A DNA stretch of 37,132 nt from assembly GCA_026706025.1 (NCBI GenBank), contig JAPOZO010000014.1, positions 1-37,132 of the forward strand, given 5' to 3'. The translations under genes and the position numbers were made by a program. The stretch comes from Candidatus Poribacteria bacterium (GTDB lineage: Bacteria > Poribacteria > WGA-4E > WGA-3G). The notes beneath the pieces are model-generated. The model did no database searches and was not told where the DNA came from. It saw nothing but the letters and a program-made list of their open reading frames with translations. This document shows positions 6,041 through 17,692 of this stretch, in pieces (position 1 is the first letter of the stretch; every line of letters begins with the position of its first letter).

Positions 6041-6066
6041 AATGGGCAAGCGACGGATTGCCCATT
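6041..6066 (+). terminator. Hairpin terminator after glcE
   Basis: AATGGGCAA (6041-6049) pairs perfectly with TTGCCCATT (6058-6066) around an 8-base loop; the T-run behind it is short (TTATC). It lies about 50 bases after the glcE stop and before the next ribosome site, so it probably ends the glc operon, with some read-through likely. Confidence 0.55.
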
Positions 6067-6156
6067 TTATCAAGATATAGGTGCACTTTGCGAACCTATG
6101 TCGCACTTTTGTCAAGCGGATTTTGGCTTGCGAGCTGCGCCAAAAGGGGGTATAAC

Positions 6157-7812
6157 ATGAAAGAAAAAAGATGGAGGGTTCTGTGGATTGATAATCAGAG
6201 AACTGACGTAGAGCAATCTAACGGACAACCTGAAGATTCATATCGTGAAAAACAGAAGTATATAACACCAAAACCGTATGTTCGCTTTTTGGAGTACGAA
6301 GGATACGATGTATCCTTAGCGGACACGGGTGCTGAAGGCATTGCTTTACTCAAAGACGAGACATATCACGCTGCCTTACTGAATTACGATGCAGCGCTGC
6401 AAACGGATAATCTACTTGCGCGGATTCGAGATGTGGATGCCCATATTCCGATCATTCTCCTCACGCGTGAGGATGGACAGGAAGTCCTGCAGCAAGCGAG
6501 CCTTTATAATATTGGCAATATCTTCATGATGTCAGAGAATGCTCAGGTCAAGGCTTCTTCAAGACAGCTGGCATTATCACTTGCCTTTTTGCTTGAAAAG
6601 CAAGGCGTTCGGGAAGCGTATACACCGCAAGCGTACGTCCAAAATTTTAATCGGACGCGCATTTCCGGTGGGGAAATACGAGAACGCGACGCTGATAGCG
6701 ATTGGCAAACATGGATAGATACTTATGTTCGTCTCGTGGAATGGGATCTGCGGCTTGATACCTTACATAGTGTTGACGGGCTTAAAACTATTCATGAAAC
6801 GGAGAAACATGAGGCAAACGCTGCGTTTGCGAACTATGTTCAGGATAACTATAAGCATTGGCTTGTCGGTAAAGCGTCGCCGACCTTATCCGTGGATGTC
6901 GTTTACAAATATGTCATCCCTGAAATTCAGGCGGGGAAGCAGGTATTATTTATTGTTATGGATTGTATGCGGCTCGACCATTGGCTTAAAATCGAGCCGT
7001 TGCTTTATCCACTGTTTGACATAAAAACGGATTATTATTATTCCATCGTGCCAACAGCGACGCGCTATGCCCGGAACGCTATTTTTAGTGGTCTGTTTCC
7101 GCTTGAGCTTGCTGAAAGATATCCAGACCTGTACGCGGAACCGGATAACACACACACGAGCATCAATCGTTATGAGAAACAACTTCTGCGTTTGCAATTT
7201 GAGAGGCACGGCATACCTCTCAAACCGCCCTCGCATTACTTCAAAATTTTTGATGTGCGTGGGGAGATGCAATACCTGCACTGGCTGAGCGTCGCAGATC
7301 GGATTAGTTTGTCGGCACTCGTTGTCGATTTCTTGGATATGCTGACCCATGCGCGGTATGAGGTGGATTTACTTCGGCAGCTTATTCCAGATGAGGCGGC
7401 ATTCCGAACGCTCGTCCACGCGTGGTTTCAACATTCTCGGCTTTATGAAATATTCAGGATTGCTGCCGAACGCGATATAACCGTCATCTTAACGTCTGAC
7501 CACGGTTCGTTACGCTGTCAAAATGCTGCGAAGATTTCAAGCCAAGCCGCACTTACTGCTGGGCTTCGGTTTAAAGAGGGCAGAAACATCTCGTGCGCCC
7601 CTGAAACCGGATGGATTATAAAAGACCCAGAGACGTATCGTTTACCCGGGGAATCAACGCGGATGAATTATGTTCTCGCTAAAGAAGACTACTATTTTGT
7701 TTATGATAGGCAGTTCAACGTCTATAAGGAAATATTTCAAGGCAGTTTCCAACACGGCGGCGTTTCTCTTGAAGAGATGATTCTGCCGTGCGTTGTGCTT
7801 GAACCGAGGTAG
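6157..7812 (+). CDS. PorX-like receiver-PglZ protein with degenerate receiver
   Basis: The protein has 551 aa from the ATG at 6157, which has an AGGGGG site 7 bases upstream; an upstream GTG/ATG extension lacks one. Residues 6-135 have receiver-domain layout, but the acidic pair is D12-N13 and the phosphoacceptor position is N76 (A-L-L-N where L-L-D is expected). T103 is kept and the usual Lys after strand 5 is missing. The C-terminal half is a PglZ alkaline-phosphatase-fold domain: V-M-D269, P-T-A-T-R-Y-A-R-N-A-I-F (nucleophile T300 or T302), T-S-D448-H449-G and Q-H533-G-G, with D-F-L-D-M-L-T-H-A-R as in PorX. PorX regulates type IX secretion in Bacteroidetes and cleaves linear/cyclic oligonucleotides. 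Here the metal-site residues look intact. dsbD follows 17 bases later. No PorY-like kinase is in view. Confidence 0.8.
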   Translation: MKEKRWRVLWIDNQRTDVEQSNGQPEDSYREKQKYITPKPYVRFLEYEGYDVSLADTGAEGIALLKDETYHAALLNYDAALQTDNLLARIRDVDAHIPIILLTREDGQEVLQQASLYNIGNIFMMSENAQVKASSRQLALSLAFLLEKQGVREAYTPQAYVQNFNRTRISGGEIRERDADSDWQTWIDTYVRLVEWDLRLDTLHSVDGLKTIHETEKHEANAAFANYVQDNYKHWLVGKASPTLSVDVVYKYVIPEIQAGKQVLFIVMDCMRLDHWLKIEPLLYPLFDIKTDYYYSIVPTATRYARNAIFSGLFPLELAERYPDLYAEPDNTHTSINRYEKQLLRLQFERHGIPLKPPSHYFKIFDVRGEMQYLHWLSVADRISLSALVVDFLDMLTHARYEVDLLRQLIPDEAAFRTLVHAWFQHSRLYEIFRIAAERDITVILTSDHGSLRCQNAAKISSQAALTAGLRFKEGRNISCAPETGWIIKDPETYRLPGESTRMNYVLAKEDYYFVYDRQFNVYKEIFQGSFQHGGVSLEEMILPCVVLEPR

Positions 7813-11453: not shown

Positions 11454-11485
11454 GAAAAAGTAGCGGAAACTGGCACATGATGAAG

Positions 11486-11557
11486 AGCCGATGAGAGGAT
11501 TTGAACCTCCGACCTACTGATTACGAATCAGTTGCTCTTCCACTGAGCTACACCGGC
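11486..11557 (-). tRNA. tRNA-Thr(CGT)
   Basis: The minus strand folds as a full cloverleaf. The acceptor is GCCGGTG against CATCGGC with one G-U pair, the D arm is AGCTC...GAGC, the anticodon stem is ACTGA/TCAGT with loop TTCGTAA (anticodon CGT, reading ACG), and the T arm contains GTTCAAATC. CCA is not encoded. It is the second gene of a tRNA-Phe-tRNA-Thr pair. Confidence 0.93.
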
Positions 11558-11587
11558 TTAACAAACTGTGACAATTGGGGAAAGAAA

Positions 11588-11660
11588 TGCCGAGAGGCAG
11601 AATCGAACTGCCGACACATAGATTTTCAGTCTACTGCTCTACCGACTGAGCTATCTCGGC
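11588..11660 (-). tRNA. tRNA-Phe(GAA)
   Basis: The minus strand gives a cloverleaf with acceptor GCCGAGA/TCTCGGC, anticodon stem GTAGA/TCTAT, loop CTGAAAA (anticodon GAA, Phe), T loop TTCGATT and discriminator A. CCA is not encoded. It lies 30 bases upstream of tRNA-Thr in the same transcript. Confidence 0.95.
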
Positions 11661-11673
11661 ACAAGGCTATATT

Positions 11674-12031: not shown

Positions 12032-13135
12032 TTAGGATGCCAAGCGCATCGGCACGACAAGACAAAGATGGCCTTCCTCACCGATCGGTTTAAAGAATAT
12101 AGGCTTCACTTCAGTTGTGAATTCAATTACGACGGATTCTGTTTCGATGTGTGTCAACGCCTCTATCAATAGGCGCGCATCAATCCCAAACCGTATTTGT
12201 CCAGTGGCGGATTCCACAGGAAGCGTCTCGTGTGCCTCTCCTAATTCCGGGGTATTCACTGAAACTTGGACCTGTTCGGTGTCAATTTCTATACAGATCG
12301 CGTAGCTTTTTGGATTTGATAGCAGTGCGACGCGTCTACCCGCTTGTAGGAGTTGTTCTTTGGAAGCGATCGCAGTACCTTCCGGGGCTTCGGGGATGAC
12401 TTCTCGGTATTTTGGGTAATCTCCCTCGACCAGCCGTGTGGTTAAGGTGGCTTTGTCATCAGCGAGCAGCACCTGATTTTCCAAGACTGAGATCTGTACT
12501 TTATCAGATTCAGCGAAAGTGCGTTCAATCTCTTTGACGGCTTTCAGTGGAACGATGAATCCCTCTACATTCTCTGGCGTCTCGAACGGTTCGCACTGCG
12601 CGAGCGCAAGCCGGGTCATATCAGTAGCAACGACTTCAGTCTTATCTTCAAGGAAACTAAAATAGAGTCCGTTTAGATAGTATCGGACATCTTCTGTCGC
12701 TGCGGCAAATTCGGTTCTGCGGATGACGGCGCGCAAGGTTTCACCGTCGATCGTCAGTGAATGTCCATCAACAGAGGGCAATTGCGGGAATTCTTCGTCC
12801 GAGAGTCCAATAATCTTATAGACACCGTCGCCACAAGTGATTTCAACACGATCGTTTGCCGTGGTTACAAGGTGTATCGTCTTATCTTCGGGGAGTTCTT
12901 TGACGATGTCAGCCAGTTTTTTAGCGGAGACAGTAATTGCACCGTCTTCTTGAATAGCACCTTCGACCTTAATCTTAATCCCGACTTCAAGATCCGTTGC
13001 GACACATTCAATGTTTCCATCTGTGGCTTGGATCAGGACGTTTGAAAGAATCGGTAAGACATTGCGTCCACTCGCTACACCTTGTAGCACTTGCAGGGCA
13101 TGCAAGAGGTCATATTTTTCAAAAGTTAGTTCCAT
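12032..13135 (-). CDS. dnaN: DNA polymerase III sliding clamp beta, downstream copy
   Basis: A full-length clamp of 367 aa from the ATG at 13135; an in-frame TTG six bases upstream is less likely. It has three clamp domains, beginning M-E-L-T-F-E-K-Y-D-L-L and ending V-V-P-M-R-L-A-S. DnaN forms a ring that tethers DNA polymerase III and binds many clients through a C-terminal cleft. This is one of two tandem copies: codons about 27-144 are identical at the DNA level to the neighbouring gene, while the rest diverges. Its upstream region is also duplicated, but its ribosome site is weak (AGGGA) and the -35 box is poor compared with the other copy. At the E. coli M362 cleft position it has Val. 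Confidence 0.95.
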   Translation of the reverse strand: MELTFEKYDLLHALQVLQGVASGRNVLPILSNVLIQATDGNIECVATDLEVGIKIKVEGAIQEDGAITVSAKKLADIVKELPEDKTIHLVTTANDRVEITCGDGVYKIIGLSDEEFPQLPSVDGHSLTIDGETLRAVIRRTEFAAATEDVRYYLNGLYFSFLEDKTEVVATDMTRLALAQCEPFETPENVEGFIVPLKAVKEIERTFAESDKVQISVLENQVLLADDKATLTTRLVEGDYPKYREVIPEAPEGTAIASKEQLLQAGRRVALLSNPKSYAICIEIDTEQVQVSVNTPELGEAHETLPVESATGQIRFGIDARLLIEALTHIETESVVIEFTTEVKPIFFKPIGEEGHLCLVVPMRLAS

Positions 13136-13315
13136 TTCCAATTTTCCCTATTAAGCATTTCAGTAATTCTACCAGAAGGTCTCGTTAAAATTGAGCACAT
13201 TTTCAACTTTGCAGAGGCGTTCAGTTTTCAGTAATCAGCAGTCAGCAAAACAGCAATGAGTTATCAGCGGGTAGTGGGTATCATTTCTACCGAAGAAAAG
13301 ACTACGACGGTTCTT
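13136..13315 (-). promoter_or_regulatory. Duplicated, decayed promoter region between the two dnaN genes
   Basis: The first 70 bases upstream of the downstream dnaN align with the promoter region of the upstream copy: TAGAAT (13166-13171) after TGG corresponds to TAAAAT, but the TTGACT -35 has become CAATTT. The rest, around 13216-13260, contains CAGTTTTCAGTAATCAGCAG-like low-complexity repeats. This copy may depend partly on read-through from the upstream gene. Confidence 0.5.
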
Positions 13316-14419
13316 CTAAGATCCCAAACGCATCGGGTGTATAAGACAAACATGCCCTTCCTCGCCGACCGGCTTAAAGGCTACAGTCGTCACCGCAGTT
13401 GTAAATTCAATTGCGACGGATTCTGTTTCGATGTGTGACAGTGTCTCTATCAGCAAACGCGCATCAAGTCCAATCCGTTCACGTCCATTGCAGGATTCAA
13501 CAGAAATCGTTTCGTGTGCCTCTCCTAATTCTGGGGTGTTCGTTGAGAGATGAATCTGCTCGGTACTGATTTCTAAACAGATCGCGTAGCTTTTTGGGTT
13601 TGATAGCAACGCCACGCGCCGACTCGCCTGGAGGAACTGTTCTTTCGAGACGACCGCTCTACCCGTTGCAGACTCAGGAATGAGTGCCTGATATTTTGGA
13701 TAATCTCCCTCAACCAGCCGTGTGGTTAAGGTGGCTTTGTCATCAGCGAGCAGGATCTGATTTTCAAGGATTGAGATATCTACTTTATCAGATTCAACGA
13801 AAGTGCGTTCAATCTCTTTGACGGCTTTCAGTGGAACGATGAATCCTTCCACATTTTCTGGTGGTTTAAACTGTTCACAATGGGCAAGTGCAAGCCATAC
13901 TGCGTCAGTGGCAACGACTTCGGTCTTATCTTCAAGAAAGTTAAAATAGAGTCCGTTTAGGTAGTATCGGACATCCTCTGTCGCTGCAGCAAATTCGGTT
14001 CTGCGGATGACGGCGCGCAAGGTTTCACCGTCGATCGTCAGTGAATGTCCATCAACAGAGGGCAATTGCGGGAATTCTTCGTCCGAGAGTCCAATAATCT
14101 TATAGACACCGTCGCCACAAGTGATTTCAACACGATCGTTTGCCGTGGTTACAAGGTGTATCGTCTTATCTTCGGGGAGTTCTTTGACGATGTCAGCCAG
14201 TTTTTTAGCGGAGACAGTAATTGCACCGTCTTCTTGAATAGCACCTTCGACCTTAATCTTAATCCCGACTTCAAGATCCGTTGCGACACATTCAATGTTT
14301 CCATCTGTGGCTTGGATCAGGACGTTTGAAAGAATCGGTAAAGTATTGCGTCCACTCGCGACACTTTGTAGTATTTGCAACGCATGCAAGAGGTCATATT
14401 TTTCAAAAGTTAGTTCCAT
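13316..14419 (-). CDS. dnaN: DNA polymerase III sliding clamp beta, upstream copy
   Basis: Also a complete clamp of 367 aa, beginning M-E-L-T-F-E-K-Y-D-L-L and ending I-H-P-M-R-L-G-S. AAGGAG lies 8 bases before the ATG and a promoter 35 bases further up, so this is the better expressed copy by sequence. The C-terminal domain differs from its tandem partner. At the position of E. coli M362, part of the hydrophobic cleft that holds clamp-binding peptides, it has His instead of a hydrophobic residue. No dnaA, recF or gyrB is nearby, so this is not the usual origin locus. One copy may have a special role; which one is the housekeeping clamp cannot be settled here. Confidence 0.95.
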   Translation of the reverse strand: MELTFEKYDLLHALQILQSVASGRNTLPILSNVLIQATDGNIECVATDLEVGIKIKVEGAIQEDGAITVSAKKLADIVKELPEDKTIHLVTTANDRVEITCGDGVYKIIGLSDEEFPQLPSVDGHSLTIDGETLRAVIRRTEFAAATEDVRYYLNGLYFNFLEDKTEVVATDAVWLALAHCEQFKPPENVEGFIVPLKAVKEIERTFVESDKVDISILENQILLADDKATLTTRLVEGDYPKYQALIPESATGRAVVSKEQFLQASRRVALLSNPKSYAICLEISTEQIHLSTNTPELGEAHETISVESCNGRERIGLDARLLIETLSHIETESVAIEFTTAVTTVAFKPVGEEGHVCLIHPMRLGS

Positions 14420-14641: not shown

Positions 14642-17600
14642 CTACTCAAAAACATTTTCGATGTGGAGGGATTGAGCCATCTTCTGATTTTCGGTTTCTA
14701 ATTTTTCACGGCTCGCGATAACGCAAATCGAGGCTTTATCGTTGTTTGCCTCCAAAGTTTCGAGCAGTGCTCGTTTGACCGCCTTGGGGGTTGCGCGTCG
14801 GAGTTGTGCGTATCTTTCTTCGATTACTTCTCGTGTTTGCCCAGTGAGGTAGTGCATAAGGGCATCGGTTGAAGCTTGACCAGGGCGGACTGTTTTTTGG
14901 TAATCCGACGCTGTTGCAATAATTGCTCTATCAATGTCTGTCTGCGTCCACTCTACCTGTTTGATATAGTCAGCGGTCTCTGCGAAAACATTGAGCGACC
15001 GCGCGATGTGTGGATCAAACTGCGAGCCTTGATAGAGCACAGCATCAAATGGATTATATGTGAAATCAGCACCATAGGCATTGCCTTTGAGTCGGATTTC
15101 GGGTAACATGTGATCAAACGTTAGAATATGTGAACCGATGGTTAAGAGGACTGAATCTGGATGTGAGTAGTGCGGTGCTGGCATCGCTTGTGTGCAGTGC
15201 GCGACTTGAATGGGAGCCGCCAATCCTTCGCATGGCTTTATACCATTAGGTTTAAAGCCTTTTGGTTCTGGGGCTATCGGTTCACAGCGCATATTACTAA
15301 TCCACTCGGCGAACTGTCCTTGCAGTTGGTCAAAGGCTACGTCAGAGCCGGTAAAACTGGCGGTTACACGGCCTTGGACTAATAGAAACTCGCGAATTTG
15401 TTCAATAGAATCGGTGAGTTCTTCACAAGATTTGTCAAAATGTTTGAGCAACATTTCACTCATGCGGAATTGTGGCAACCCGAAGACGGTTTCTTTCAGA
15501 TATGCCTGTGGTGAAAGTCCGCGAGCAGCATGATGATTTGCAATACTTGGACCGCGATAGCCGTGTATCTGGTTCTGATAGCCTACTACTGCTTGACTGA
15601 GCACGGTGTATAGACGTTCTTTATCGCATGGGTTCATATCGAAAACCAAATCGTGCAAAACGTCTAAGGCATCCTCTATTTTATCATCAAGTGCCTTGAG
15701 ATGAAACTGCATGTTCCACACTGGACGGCTTAGATCAAGCGCGTGGGTGGTAAAGTTTGGTGAGCACCCGATGCCGCCGGTAGCTGCTGCGCTACGTTGT
15801 GACATCTGTTCATAATTCATCTTTCCCGCCCCAAGTTTACCAACAGCATCAGTGTATCTGGGTAGATACTGCCAAAGGTGTTGTGGCAACCCTTGCAAGT
15901 CAAAATTTAGCACAAGGTAGTTCACGCCGTTTGAAAAAATATCGTTCCGGAGCAGAGGTCGTTCGCCAACCATCTCAACAGTTGTAGGAATGTATAGTAG
16001 CTTCTTGGGCAGATCTGAGACGTGCAGTTGCGGCAACTTCGCTAAATCCTCTGGTGAGTTGGGCTGCTCATTGAGATGTTCCAGATCAACGGCGTCGGCA
16101 GCAATCTGTTTCATCTGCTCATCCGTGAGCTGTGATTGGATCGCTTTCAGGCGTGCGTCCTCCTCCGCATCCAGACGCGCCTGCCTATCCGGATCAGGGG
16201 AGAGAATGGTTGTCAGCCGATGCGGGTTATCAAGGAGCCGCTCGCGAATCAATTCATTGAAGATACGCGGATTTTGCTCCCAACGTTGTCGGATAGTAGA
16301 TAGGTGCGTCCCCATCTTTAAAAAGAGAGTCGGTTCCTTTTCATATATCCAGGTATTTACGACACGCTTCATCATTTCAAACGGGAAGTTCGACGTGACT
16401 TCTTGATAGTCATAGGTGATTTGTTGGAATGCGGTTTCGACCGTTTCTGGGTCAATTTCTGCCTCTGCAATTTGCGTGAGCGTATTGATAACCAATTCCG
16501 TGAAAGGGCCAACGCGATCTGCTTCGCTTCCAACCAGACCAACACAGAAGGTTCTGTTGGGGCCTGTAAAATCTCTTAGGAAATCATTGAGTATATCAGT
16601 TCCGAGTTTTGAATCGACGATTGCCCTGCGGAGCGGTGCTCCTTCATTGCCAAACAGAATCAGGTTTAAGATACTGCACAGGATGACATCTTCGGGATCA
16701 GTTGTCCCTCCAATGAGCCAACTCAGCATCAAGTATGTCTTTTCAGTGACTGGTTCATCTGCACCAATTGGATAGGTATCTGTCACAGTTCGCGGGGATT
16801 TCCATTTCGGTTGCTGTGAGATTTCTGGTCGGAGAGGGTGCAGAAACCCATTTGTTTCAACCTTCGGTATTGCTGCCAGTTTATCGGCGAGCAATTCGAG
16901 ATAATCACTTGTTGGAATATTGCCGTAGAAGAAGAAGTAGCAGTTGCGCGGATGATAGTAGGTTTGGTGATAGGTTTTGAATTGCTCGTAGGTTAAGTCG
17001 GGCATAGCCAATGAGTTTCCAGCACTGTTACGGGCATAGCAGGTGTCGGGCAGAAGTCCATTGGTCACAGCAAAATGCAAGCACGCTTCTGGGGCAGACA
17101 GACTGTTTTTCACCTCATTGTAGACGATTCCATTGATTTTTAAATCTCCTGTGGACTGATCCGGGTTGACTGATTCAAGGTGGTGTCCTTCACGTTTGAA
17201 AGTCTCCTCTGTCAGTAGTGGATTAAAAACTGAATCAAAGTAGACTTCTGCGAGATTGAACAGGTCCTTTTTGACAATGCTTGAAGCGTAGTAAAAAGCG
17301 TGATCAATGTAGTTCATGGCATTCGTGCTATCAAAGGTTGCGAGGCTCATCTTCATGATCTCAAAGAATACCTCTTTTACCGGATAGTTGCGAGATCCTG
17401 CCATCACTGAATGCTCAAGGATATGCTGTAACCCTGTATCATCTAATGTGGGTGTTATTGGGCTGATTGAGAACCAGTTTCTGGAGTCGTCTGTGTAGAG
17501 ATGCATCAGTCGTGCGCCGCTACGTGGATGTGAGAGTTCTATTGCTACCGCTCGCAATTCGTCAATGGGTGTGACAGCTTTTACCTCAAAGCCGTGAAGA

Positions 17601-17692
17601 TGTTGCCCTGGAGAAAGGTTAACAGGTAAGTGTAGAGAATTGACCTGACTTTGTTGGAACGAATCGTGTGTCTGGCTCCGTTTTAATTCCAT
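14642..17692 (-). CDS. M16C zinc metalloprotease, PreP/falcilysin type
   Basis: The protein has 1016 aa, the usual size of presequence-protease-like M16C enzymes. The inverted zinc motif H90-I-L-E93-H94 is followed by the third ligand E193 in V-Y-N-E-V-K, and the peptidase M16C-associated domain fills the middle. Two halves of about 500 aa form a closed chamber that degrades unfolded peptides such as cleaved signal or transit sequences. I see no signal peptide, so it probably acts in the cytosol. GGAGGT lies 4 bases before the ATG. It is a single-gene unit, separated from the TAXI gene upstream by a terminator. Confidence 0.92.
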   Translation of the reverse strand: MELKRSQTHDSFQQSQVNSLHLPVNLSPGQHLHGFEVKAVTPIDELRAVAIELSHPRSGARLMHLYTDDSRNWFSISPITPTLDDTGLQHILEHSVMAGSRNYPVKEVFFEIMKMSLATFDSTNAMNYIDHAFYYASSIVKKDLFNLAEVYFDSVFNPLLTEETFKREGHHLESVNPDQSTGDLKINGIVYNEVKNSLSAPEACLHFAVTNGLLPDTCYARNSAGNSLAMPDLTYEQFKTYHQTYYHPRNCYFFFYGNIPTSDYLELLADKLAAIPKVETNGFLHPLRPEISQQPKWKSPRTVTDTYPIGADEPVTEKTYLMLSWLIGGTTDPEDVILCSILNLILFGNEGAPLRRAIVDSKLGTDILNDFLRDFTGPNRTFCVGLVGSEADRVGPFTELVINTLTQIAEAEIDPETVETAFQQITYDYQEVTSNFPFEMMKRVVNTWIYEKEPTLFLKMGTHLSTIRQRWEQNPRIFNELIRERLLDNPHRLTTILSPDPDRQARLDAEEDARLKAIQSQLTDEQMKQIAADAVDLEHLNEQPNSPEDLAKLPQLHVSDLPKKLLYIPTTVEMVGERPLLRNDIFSNGVNYLVLNFDLQGLPQHLWQYLPRYTDAVGKLGAGKMNYEQMSQRSAAATGGIGCSPNFTTHALDLSRPVWNMQFHLKALDDKIEDALDVLHDLVFDMNPCDKERLYTVLSQAVVGYQNQIHGYRGPSIANHHAARGLSPQAYLKETVFGLPQFRMSEMLLKHFDKSCEELTDSIEQIREFLLVQGRVTASFTGSDVAFDQLQGQFAEWISNMRCEPIAPEPKGFKPNGIKPCEGLAAPIQVAHCTQAMPAPHYSHPDSVLLTIGSHILTFDHMLPEIRLKGNAYGADFTYNPFDAVLYQGSQFDPHIARSLNVFAETADYIKQVEWTQTDIDRAIIATASDYQKTVRPGQASTDALMHYLTGQTREVIEERYAQLRRATPKAVKRALLETLEANNDKASICVIASREKLETENQKMAQSLHIENVFE

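Follow-up and report, generated by a model that had tools for sequence, protein, structure and literature searches.

Most bacteria have been described with one essential sliding clamp, in which a single groove serves all partners. In Sulfolobus, the clamp paralogues PCNA1, PCNA2 and PCNA3 have different partners and form a heterotrimer. The dimer interface of the E. coli beta clamp (DnaN, TIGR00663; 2POL/1MMI) has a core of I78, F106, I272 and L273, and the I272A/L273A variant is known to be monomeric (PMC11139829). A second DnaN, GriR or MypR, has been proposed to protect the producers of griselimycin and mycoplanecin (PMC10817943). Late transcription in T4 uses the clamp gp45, to which the sigma-like gp55 binds through its C-terminal region (PMC7892883), and ECF sigma factors with C-terminal extensions have been reviewed in a text that contains neither 'clamp' nor 'DNA polymerase' (PMC8999054).

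Here we analysed two tandem dnaN genes, A and A', in a 37,132-nucleotide stretch of poribacterial DNA (the window), which is contig C14 of the G000 assembly (6.27 Mb in 103 contigs, 96.4% complete, 5.0% contamination). Like E. coli beta, A and A' are full length, have three domains and keep the interface core; unlike it, they are two tandem copies accompanied by a further clamp, B, their grooves depart from TDG(K/R)RLA / MPMRL, and their domain I evolves in concert. They recall GriR and MypR as extra DnaN proteins in addition to the housekeeping one, but they are in tandem and kept across the genus, no antibiotic cluster was recognised by Pfam in the ten neighbouring ORFs, and the canonical clamp has been lost in some relatives. 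If our proposal is right, they also resemble the Sulfolobus PCNAs in being clamp paralogues with different partners, although theirs is a dimeric bacterial clamp, with a predicted heterodimer and a domain I kept the same by conversion. A further paralogue, C, joins a clamp to a sigma factor, as with gp45 and gp55, but as a covalent fusion in a bacterium, with ring formation probably lost. It shares with the extended ECF sigma factors the order of sigma2, sigma4 and a C-terminal domain, whereas the extensions in Poribacteria are copies of essential proteins (DnaN, FtsZ, FtsZ-DnaE, PurC).

In this group of Poribacteria, predicted ring clamps multiply, their groove diversifies, conversion keeps domain I uniform and some genomes have lost the canonical clamp, which makes testable both a bacterial division of clamp work among paralogues, as in some archaea, and the means by which a groove changes alongside a constant polymerase motif.

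A tandem clamp pair with a converted 5' half

The first-pass annotation had described the two dnaN genes as full length and tandem, which we confirmed: both lie on the same strand, carry all three DNA_pol3_beta domains over their full length (Table 1), and score 282.7 (A) and 274.9 bits (A') with TIGR00663 against a cut-off of 137.65 bits, so that domain content and family model both place them in DnaN. The A-proximal part of the spacer and the A' leader, compared by eye, have in common ...TTCTGGTA(G/A)AATTACTGAAA..., which suggests that the duplication included the leader. Immediately downstream of the pair lie tRNA-Thr(cgt) and tRNA-Phe(gaa) (window 11485-11661, minus strand), and elsewhere in the window (6058-7812, plus strand) is a gene for a 584-residue PorX-like protein with a PglZ domain and a weak response-regulator match.

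Table 1. Positions of the clamp pair, its sequence features and the sigma factor fusions.
Feature	Location	Strand	Remarks
dnaN copy A	window 12032..13135	-	367 aa beta clamp; downstream member of pair; ATG at 13135
dnaN copy A'	window 13316..14419	-	367 aa beta clamp; upstream member of pair; ATG at 14419
Conversion block in A	window 12705..13057	-	codons 27-144
Conversion block in A'	window 13989..14341	-	codons 27-144; identical to block in A
Groove loop of A	window 12608..12625	-	residues 171-176, TDMTRL
Groove loop of A'	window 13892..13909	-	residues 171-176, TDAVWL
C-terminal groove strand of A	window 12041..12061	-	residues 359-365, LVVPMRL
C-terminal groove strand of A'	window 13325..13345	-	residues 359-365, LIHPMRL
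A/A' intergenic spacer	window 13136..13315	-	A-proximal part resembles A' leader (by eye)
PreP-like M16 peptidase	window 14642..17692	-	upstream of A'; common to many relatives; locus marker
ECF sigma-DnaN (C)	G000:C60, L035:8842-10569	-	in-frame, full-length clamp; damaged dimer interface
ECF sigma-FtsZ	G000:C94, L173:6694-7911	-	405 aa; FtsZ GTPase domain only; conserved in genus
ECF sigma-FtsZ-DnaE	G000:C77, L155:148-4227	+	1352 aa; PHP/DnaE polymerase core, no C-terminal DnaE domains
ECF sigma-FtsZ-DnaE	G005:C1, L209:3778-8079	+	one frame; PHP/DnaE core, no C-terminal DnaE domains
ECF sigma-PurC	G000:C60, L168:5532-7079	-	515 aa; SAICAR synthetase

A and A' differ at 141 sites over 1104 nt, all outside a single run of 353 identical nucleotides. 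This run, the longest in the pair, coincides exactly with the block of base-for-base identity (12705-13057 and 13989-14341) from which gene conversion in an older duplication had been proposed, and, as the annotation had not noted, it covers essentially domain I and extends into the beginning of domain II. When the 141 differences were placed at random, the longest run averaged 40 nt and never exceeded 110 nt in 20,000 trials. Synonymous divergence by windows, the check that the annotation had suggested, likewise set the block apart, with a dS between the copies of 0.01 in codons 27-144 against 0.4-0.7 in the parts of the gene after it. Within the block, A' of G000 differs at 13 sites from A' of its nearest relative, G015, and at none from its own A, which upholds the conversion reading and dates the event after the split of the two genomes.

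Comparison across relatives showed the same pattern on a wider scale. In four relatives within the clade of G000, every A differs from every A' at 63 sites, none of them within nucleotides 81-518. In trees of codons 27-170, A and A' group by genome in G000 (support 0.92), G006 (0.97) and G016 (0.95); in trees of codons 171 to the end, they separate by copy with support of 1.0 each in the clade of G000 and 0.999-1.0 in the other two tandem clades. For clades 1 and 3, between-copy dS rises from 0.01-0.58 across codons 27-144 to 0.70-1.08 across codons 244-366; in clade 2 (G003, G020, G025) it is high along the whole gene, with little sign of recent conversion. The domain-I conversions of G006 and G016 are independent and retain residual differences. 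These data support recurrent gene conversion between A and A' that is limited to the 5' half. Since A and the unlinked B are likewise most alike in domain I, this limitation may be passive; conversion may halt at the groove through selection, or simply because divergence of the 3' halves prevents recombination.

An identical block could also arise if two similar copies had been collapsed during assembly, an explanation that we regard as highly improbable. A 353-bp identity is longer than common assembly word lengths, and two further pairs in the genus, in G015 and G002, are interrupted by contig ends inside or beside them. However, both copies were resolved at the same place in 13 other genomes, one of which is a single-contig chromosome (G005, OX639973.1), and conversions in other genomes are partial and independent; collapse would leave none of the differences that persist in G006 and G016, so misassembly of the G000 pair is unlikely. 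Conserved tandem pairs and incomplete conversions in relatives thus weaken collapse as the main explanation, and assembler smoothing may still have removed a few SNPs within the 353 bp.

Clamp repertoire and groove divergence among relatives

Beyond what the annotation had noted, G000 encodes four DnaN homologues: besides A and A', these are B on contig C20 (69% identical to A) and C on contig C60 (54%). Its single dnaA lies on contig C63 (L156:3-5668, minus strand) with recF- and gyrB-like neighbours, named by eye, and we found no clamp in this neighbourhood, including the interval between dnaA and recF where dnaN usually sits. We compared 38 genomes of the genus (g1), of which 14 have a resolved tandem A/A' (G000, G003-G006, G011, G014, G016, G020, G025, G027, G029, G032 and G084). 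In about half of the 38, a single A occupies the same place, as judged from the shared neighbours (PreP-like peptidase, NMT1-like, TPR and DsbD), so the tandem duplication is derived. Looked for in related genomes, as the annotation had advised, the pair was present in the 13 other resolved genomes and absent from those with a single A; the latter are the single-dnaN loci that the annotation had named as telling against its reading, an objection that applies in part and that we take to mark the duplication as derived.

The annotation had further considered two intact clamp genes unusual, a view that does not extend to this family, in which multi-clamp genomes are common and tandem or triple clamps recur. 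In the sister genus g20, 14 of the 15 standalone clamp loci examined are arrays of two or three, and these arrays have the neighbours of the B locus; the other families of the order have mostly one full-length clamp per genome. Many of the relatives matched by the clamp protein are presumably sponge-derived. Triple arrays were seen at L137:3448-6935 (G080) and L140:3657-7166 (G077), and in several g20 clamps the groove loop is longer by one inserted residue (TDGTRQLA, TDAIRHLA). Frames were also seen in other families of the order that end in DUF4159 and begin with a stretch like clamp domain I (L093:4054-5766 in G049; L094:2652-4412 in G040); a Pfam match to that domain was found in L093 only, and the similarity of L094 is weak.

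A conserved OPT-like transporter (named by eye) marks the B locus, where G003, G007, G009, G019 and G025 have no B and G001 and G006 have only a 3' remnant of it. The ring-capable clamps found in genomes without an intact B are A, or A together with A'; none was found in G019, the assembly of which is therefore probably incomplete. DnaE retains its clamp motif QMSLF in the B-less G001, G006 and G007, so, judging from these sequences, A-type clamps with their remodelled groove presumably support replication in such relatives. QMSLF or a close variant occurs in nearly all genomes, with QISFF (G009), QGTLF (G020) and QMNFF (G032) as exceptions. Co-evolution of this motif with the groove was considered and rejected, as no pattern accompanied loss of B. 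The motif is much alike whichever clamps are present, and hence does not tie a partner to one copy.

Groove residues were taken from PMC11139829 and transferred through alignment to clamps in the PDB. TDG[KR]RLA (one TDGNRLA) with IMPMRL is the reading in B and in single clamps from the other families of the order. In the clade of G000, A has TDM[HT]RLA with VVPMRL and A' has TDA[VI]WLA with IHPMRL; each of the remaining tandem clades has a fixed pair of its own, TDAIWLA with TD[FM]VKLA and TD[FM]VQLA with TDGV[SA]LA. Relative to the canonical groove, A and A' keep PMRL and are changed at G174, M362 and, in A', R176. Fixed differences between the copies fall in the groove at positions 173, 174, 175, 245, 246 and 361, and none falls in codons 27-170. 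Among fixed differences in codons 171-367, the groove is over-represented in two of the three tandem clades (p = 0.030 and 0.009), and its enrichment in the clade of G000 is not significant (p = 0.086). Domain III dN/dS in clade 1 is about 0.02-0.08 for orthologues against about 0.2-0.28 between copies, and both A and A' are under purifying selection. A, A' and B of G000 all retain an identical hydrophobic interface core (I77, Y106, L271, L272), which would in principle allow heterodimers.

Candidate roles of the two clamps

Taken together, we consider it probable that A and A' are ring clamps from a derived duplication that diverged in the groove and were converted in domain I, and that a separate, sigma-fused copy does not form a ring. 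A and A' would be functional, ring-forming beta clamps; after the tandem duplication, their partner-binding groove and domain III diverged and later became fixed, so that each ring probably has its own preferred partners or its own tolerance of groove inhibitors. Gene conversion has repeatedly replaced domain I of one copy, with its half of the dimer interface, by that of the other, which would keep the two subunits interchangeable, and A and A' are predicted to form heterodimers as well as homodimers.

The strongest rival for the pair is resistance to groove-binding peptides, in which the grooves would have been remodelled against griselimycin- or mycoplanecin-type products in the sponge holobiont, and duplication and groove change would protect replication as the second DnaN has been proposed to do in producers. 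That the changed site is the groove fits this explanation, as does loss of the canonical B in relatives; DnaE retains its clamp-binding motif, meaning that the groove change need not serve a new polymerase, and a second dnaN is the putative self-resistance gene of griselimycin and mycoplanecin clusters (PMC10817943). Nevertheless, Pfam searches of the ten neighbouring ORFs of the window revealed no biosynthetic cluster for a DnaN-binding peptide, and resistance by itself does not require two copies with unlike grooves, leaving this reading unlikely for both the groove remodelling and the protective duplication. Simple dosage, by which two copies just supply more clamp and conversion only reflects their closeness, appears quite improbable: redundancy commonly yields tandem duplication and conversion, and the sister genus has arrays of two or three, but copy-specific groove states are fixed across species, and dN/dS between the copies is several times the orthologue value. 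Ring clamps with different partners remain our preferred reading of A and A'. Membership of a known anti-phage defence family was rejected, as A, A' and the sigma-DnaN, sigma-FtsZ and sigma-FtsZ-DnaE proteins matched none of the PADLOC models.

Sigma factors fused to DnaN and other housekeeping proteins

The fourth clamp, C, is one open frame comprising the Sigma70 regions 2 and 4 of an ECF sigma factor, a linker and a three-domain clamp, which is the arrangement of an ECF sigma factor with an added domain. Most genus genomes and three from g20 carry sigma-clamp fusions, and full-length examples are also found in the single-contig assemblies G005, G010, G021 and G028. Type 1 fusions are present in g1 and g20; type 2 fusions have a different kind of ECF domain and a clamp that groups with B, so at least two fusions probably happened. 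Purifying selection predominates in both the sigma part (dN/dS mostly 0.07-0.2) and the clamp part (mostly 0.1-0.4), with a few short or low-dS outliers. Some related fusions are without domain III (G005, G029, G032, G035) or domain I (G024).

Every full-length fusion of the genus has a damaged dimer core, through Y106 to R, H or N and/or LL to, for example, SR, AR, ER, LV, AF or PL in type 1, and through LL to LR, QL or EL in type 2, which retains the canonical groove loop. The three g20 fusions retain LL and have T or H in place of Y106. All tabulated standalone clamps keep the core with conservative changes only. On sequence grounds, the sigma-clamp is thus probably monomeric and no longer forms a ring. 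The former dnaN start is an ATG in 39 of 39 fusions, and in 38 of 39 a Shine-Dalgarno-like motif lies within 16 nt of this internal ATG, against a background of 8% in the same genes; a second, free clamp product is possible, and common ancestry explains part of the conservation.

We had initially favoured a sliding activator of the T4 kind for this fusion, in which a sigma factor carried on a ring would couple transcription to replication, given the T4 use of gp45 (PMC7892883) and the position of the clamp directly after sigma region 4 in C. This explanation was dropped as first choice once the interface residues had been read, and now seems very doubtful: no full-length genus fusion of either kind has an undamaged core, replacement of I272 and L273 by alanine is known to make E. 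coli beta monomeric (PMC11139829), and related fusions do without domain III or domain I. With the interface core of C damaged in its sequence, the ring that T4-like activation calls for is not expected, and the T4 precedent is a resemblance only. Instead, a further clamp copy has come to form the C-terminus of an ECF sigma factor and appears to have lost ring formation; most likely, we infer, it acts as a regulatory sensor or decoy domain. Occurrence of the sigma-clamp fusion in phages or plasmids was also rejected: no phage or plasmid record covers 80% of the fused protein and, among the matches listed, the best cover the clamp part.

C is one of several such proteins. G000 has 83 sigma region-2 matches, well over half of them in frames longer than 400 residues, and the extensions include TPR/thioredoxin and WD40 domains in addition to copies of housekeeping proteins (Table 1). 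Sigma-FtsZ occurs in most genus genomes searched; frames of about 1350-1440 residues that match it were found in more than 12 relatives and proved to be sigma-FtsZ-DnaE where read (G000, G005), and nearly all these genomes have a separate FtsZ-sized frame of 426-445 residues. In nine genomes, sigma-DnaN and sigma-FtsZ lie about 4-10 kb apart, and their surroundings contain genes for ABC-2 permeases, ABC exporters and MacB/FtsX. A literature search on sigma-clamp and sigma-FtsZ fusions and on Poribacteria sigma factors retrieved no paper on these subjects, nor any description of the sigma-clamp, sigma-FtsZ and sigma-FtsZ-DnaE architecture, which is also present in single-contig assemblies.

These fusions suggest that sigma factors read out the state of essential machines. 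As a tentative and rather doubtful extension, ECF sigma factors with assembly-disabled copies of such machines (DnaN with a damaged dimer interface, the FtsZ GTPase domain without the C-terminal half, FtsZ-DnaE without the C-terminal DnaE domains, and PurC) might serve as integrated decoys that sense attack on the real machine, or its state, and switch on neighbouring exporters. If so, the groove-remodelled tandem ring clamps would be the matching resistant or specialised targets.

A separate, normal PurC is encoded on C84 of G000, and further long PurC frames were seen in G022, G041, G046 and G047. Long arrays of ECF sigma genes with transmembrane or TPR-like C-terminal extensions were observed at G000:C56:34500-80000 (L160-L162) and also on C26, C72 and C3.
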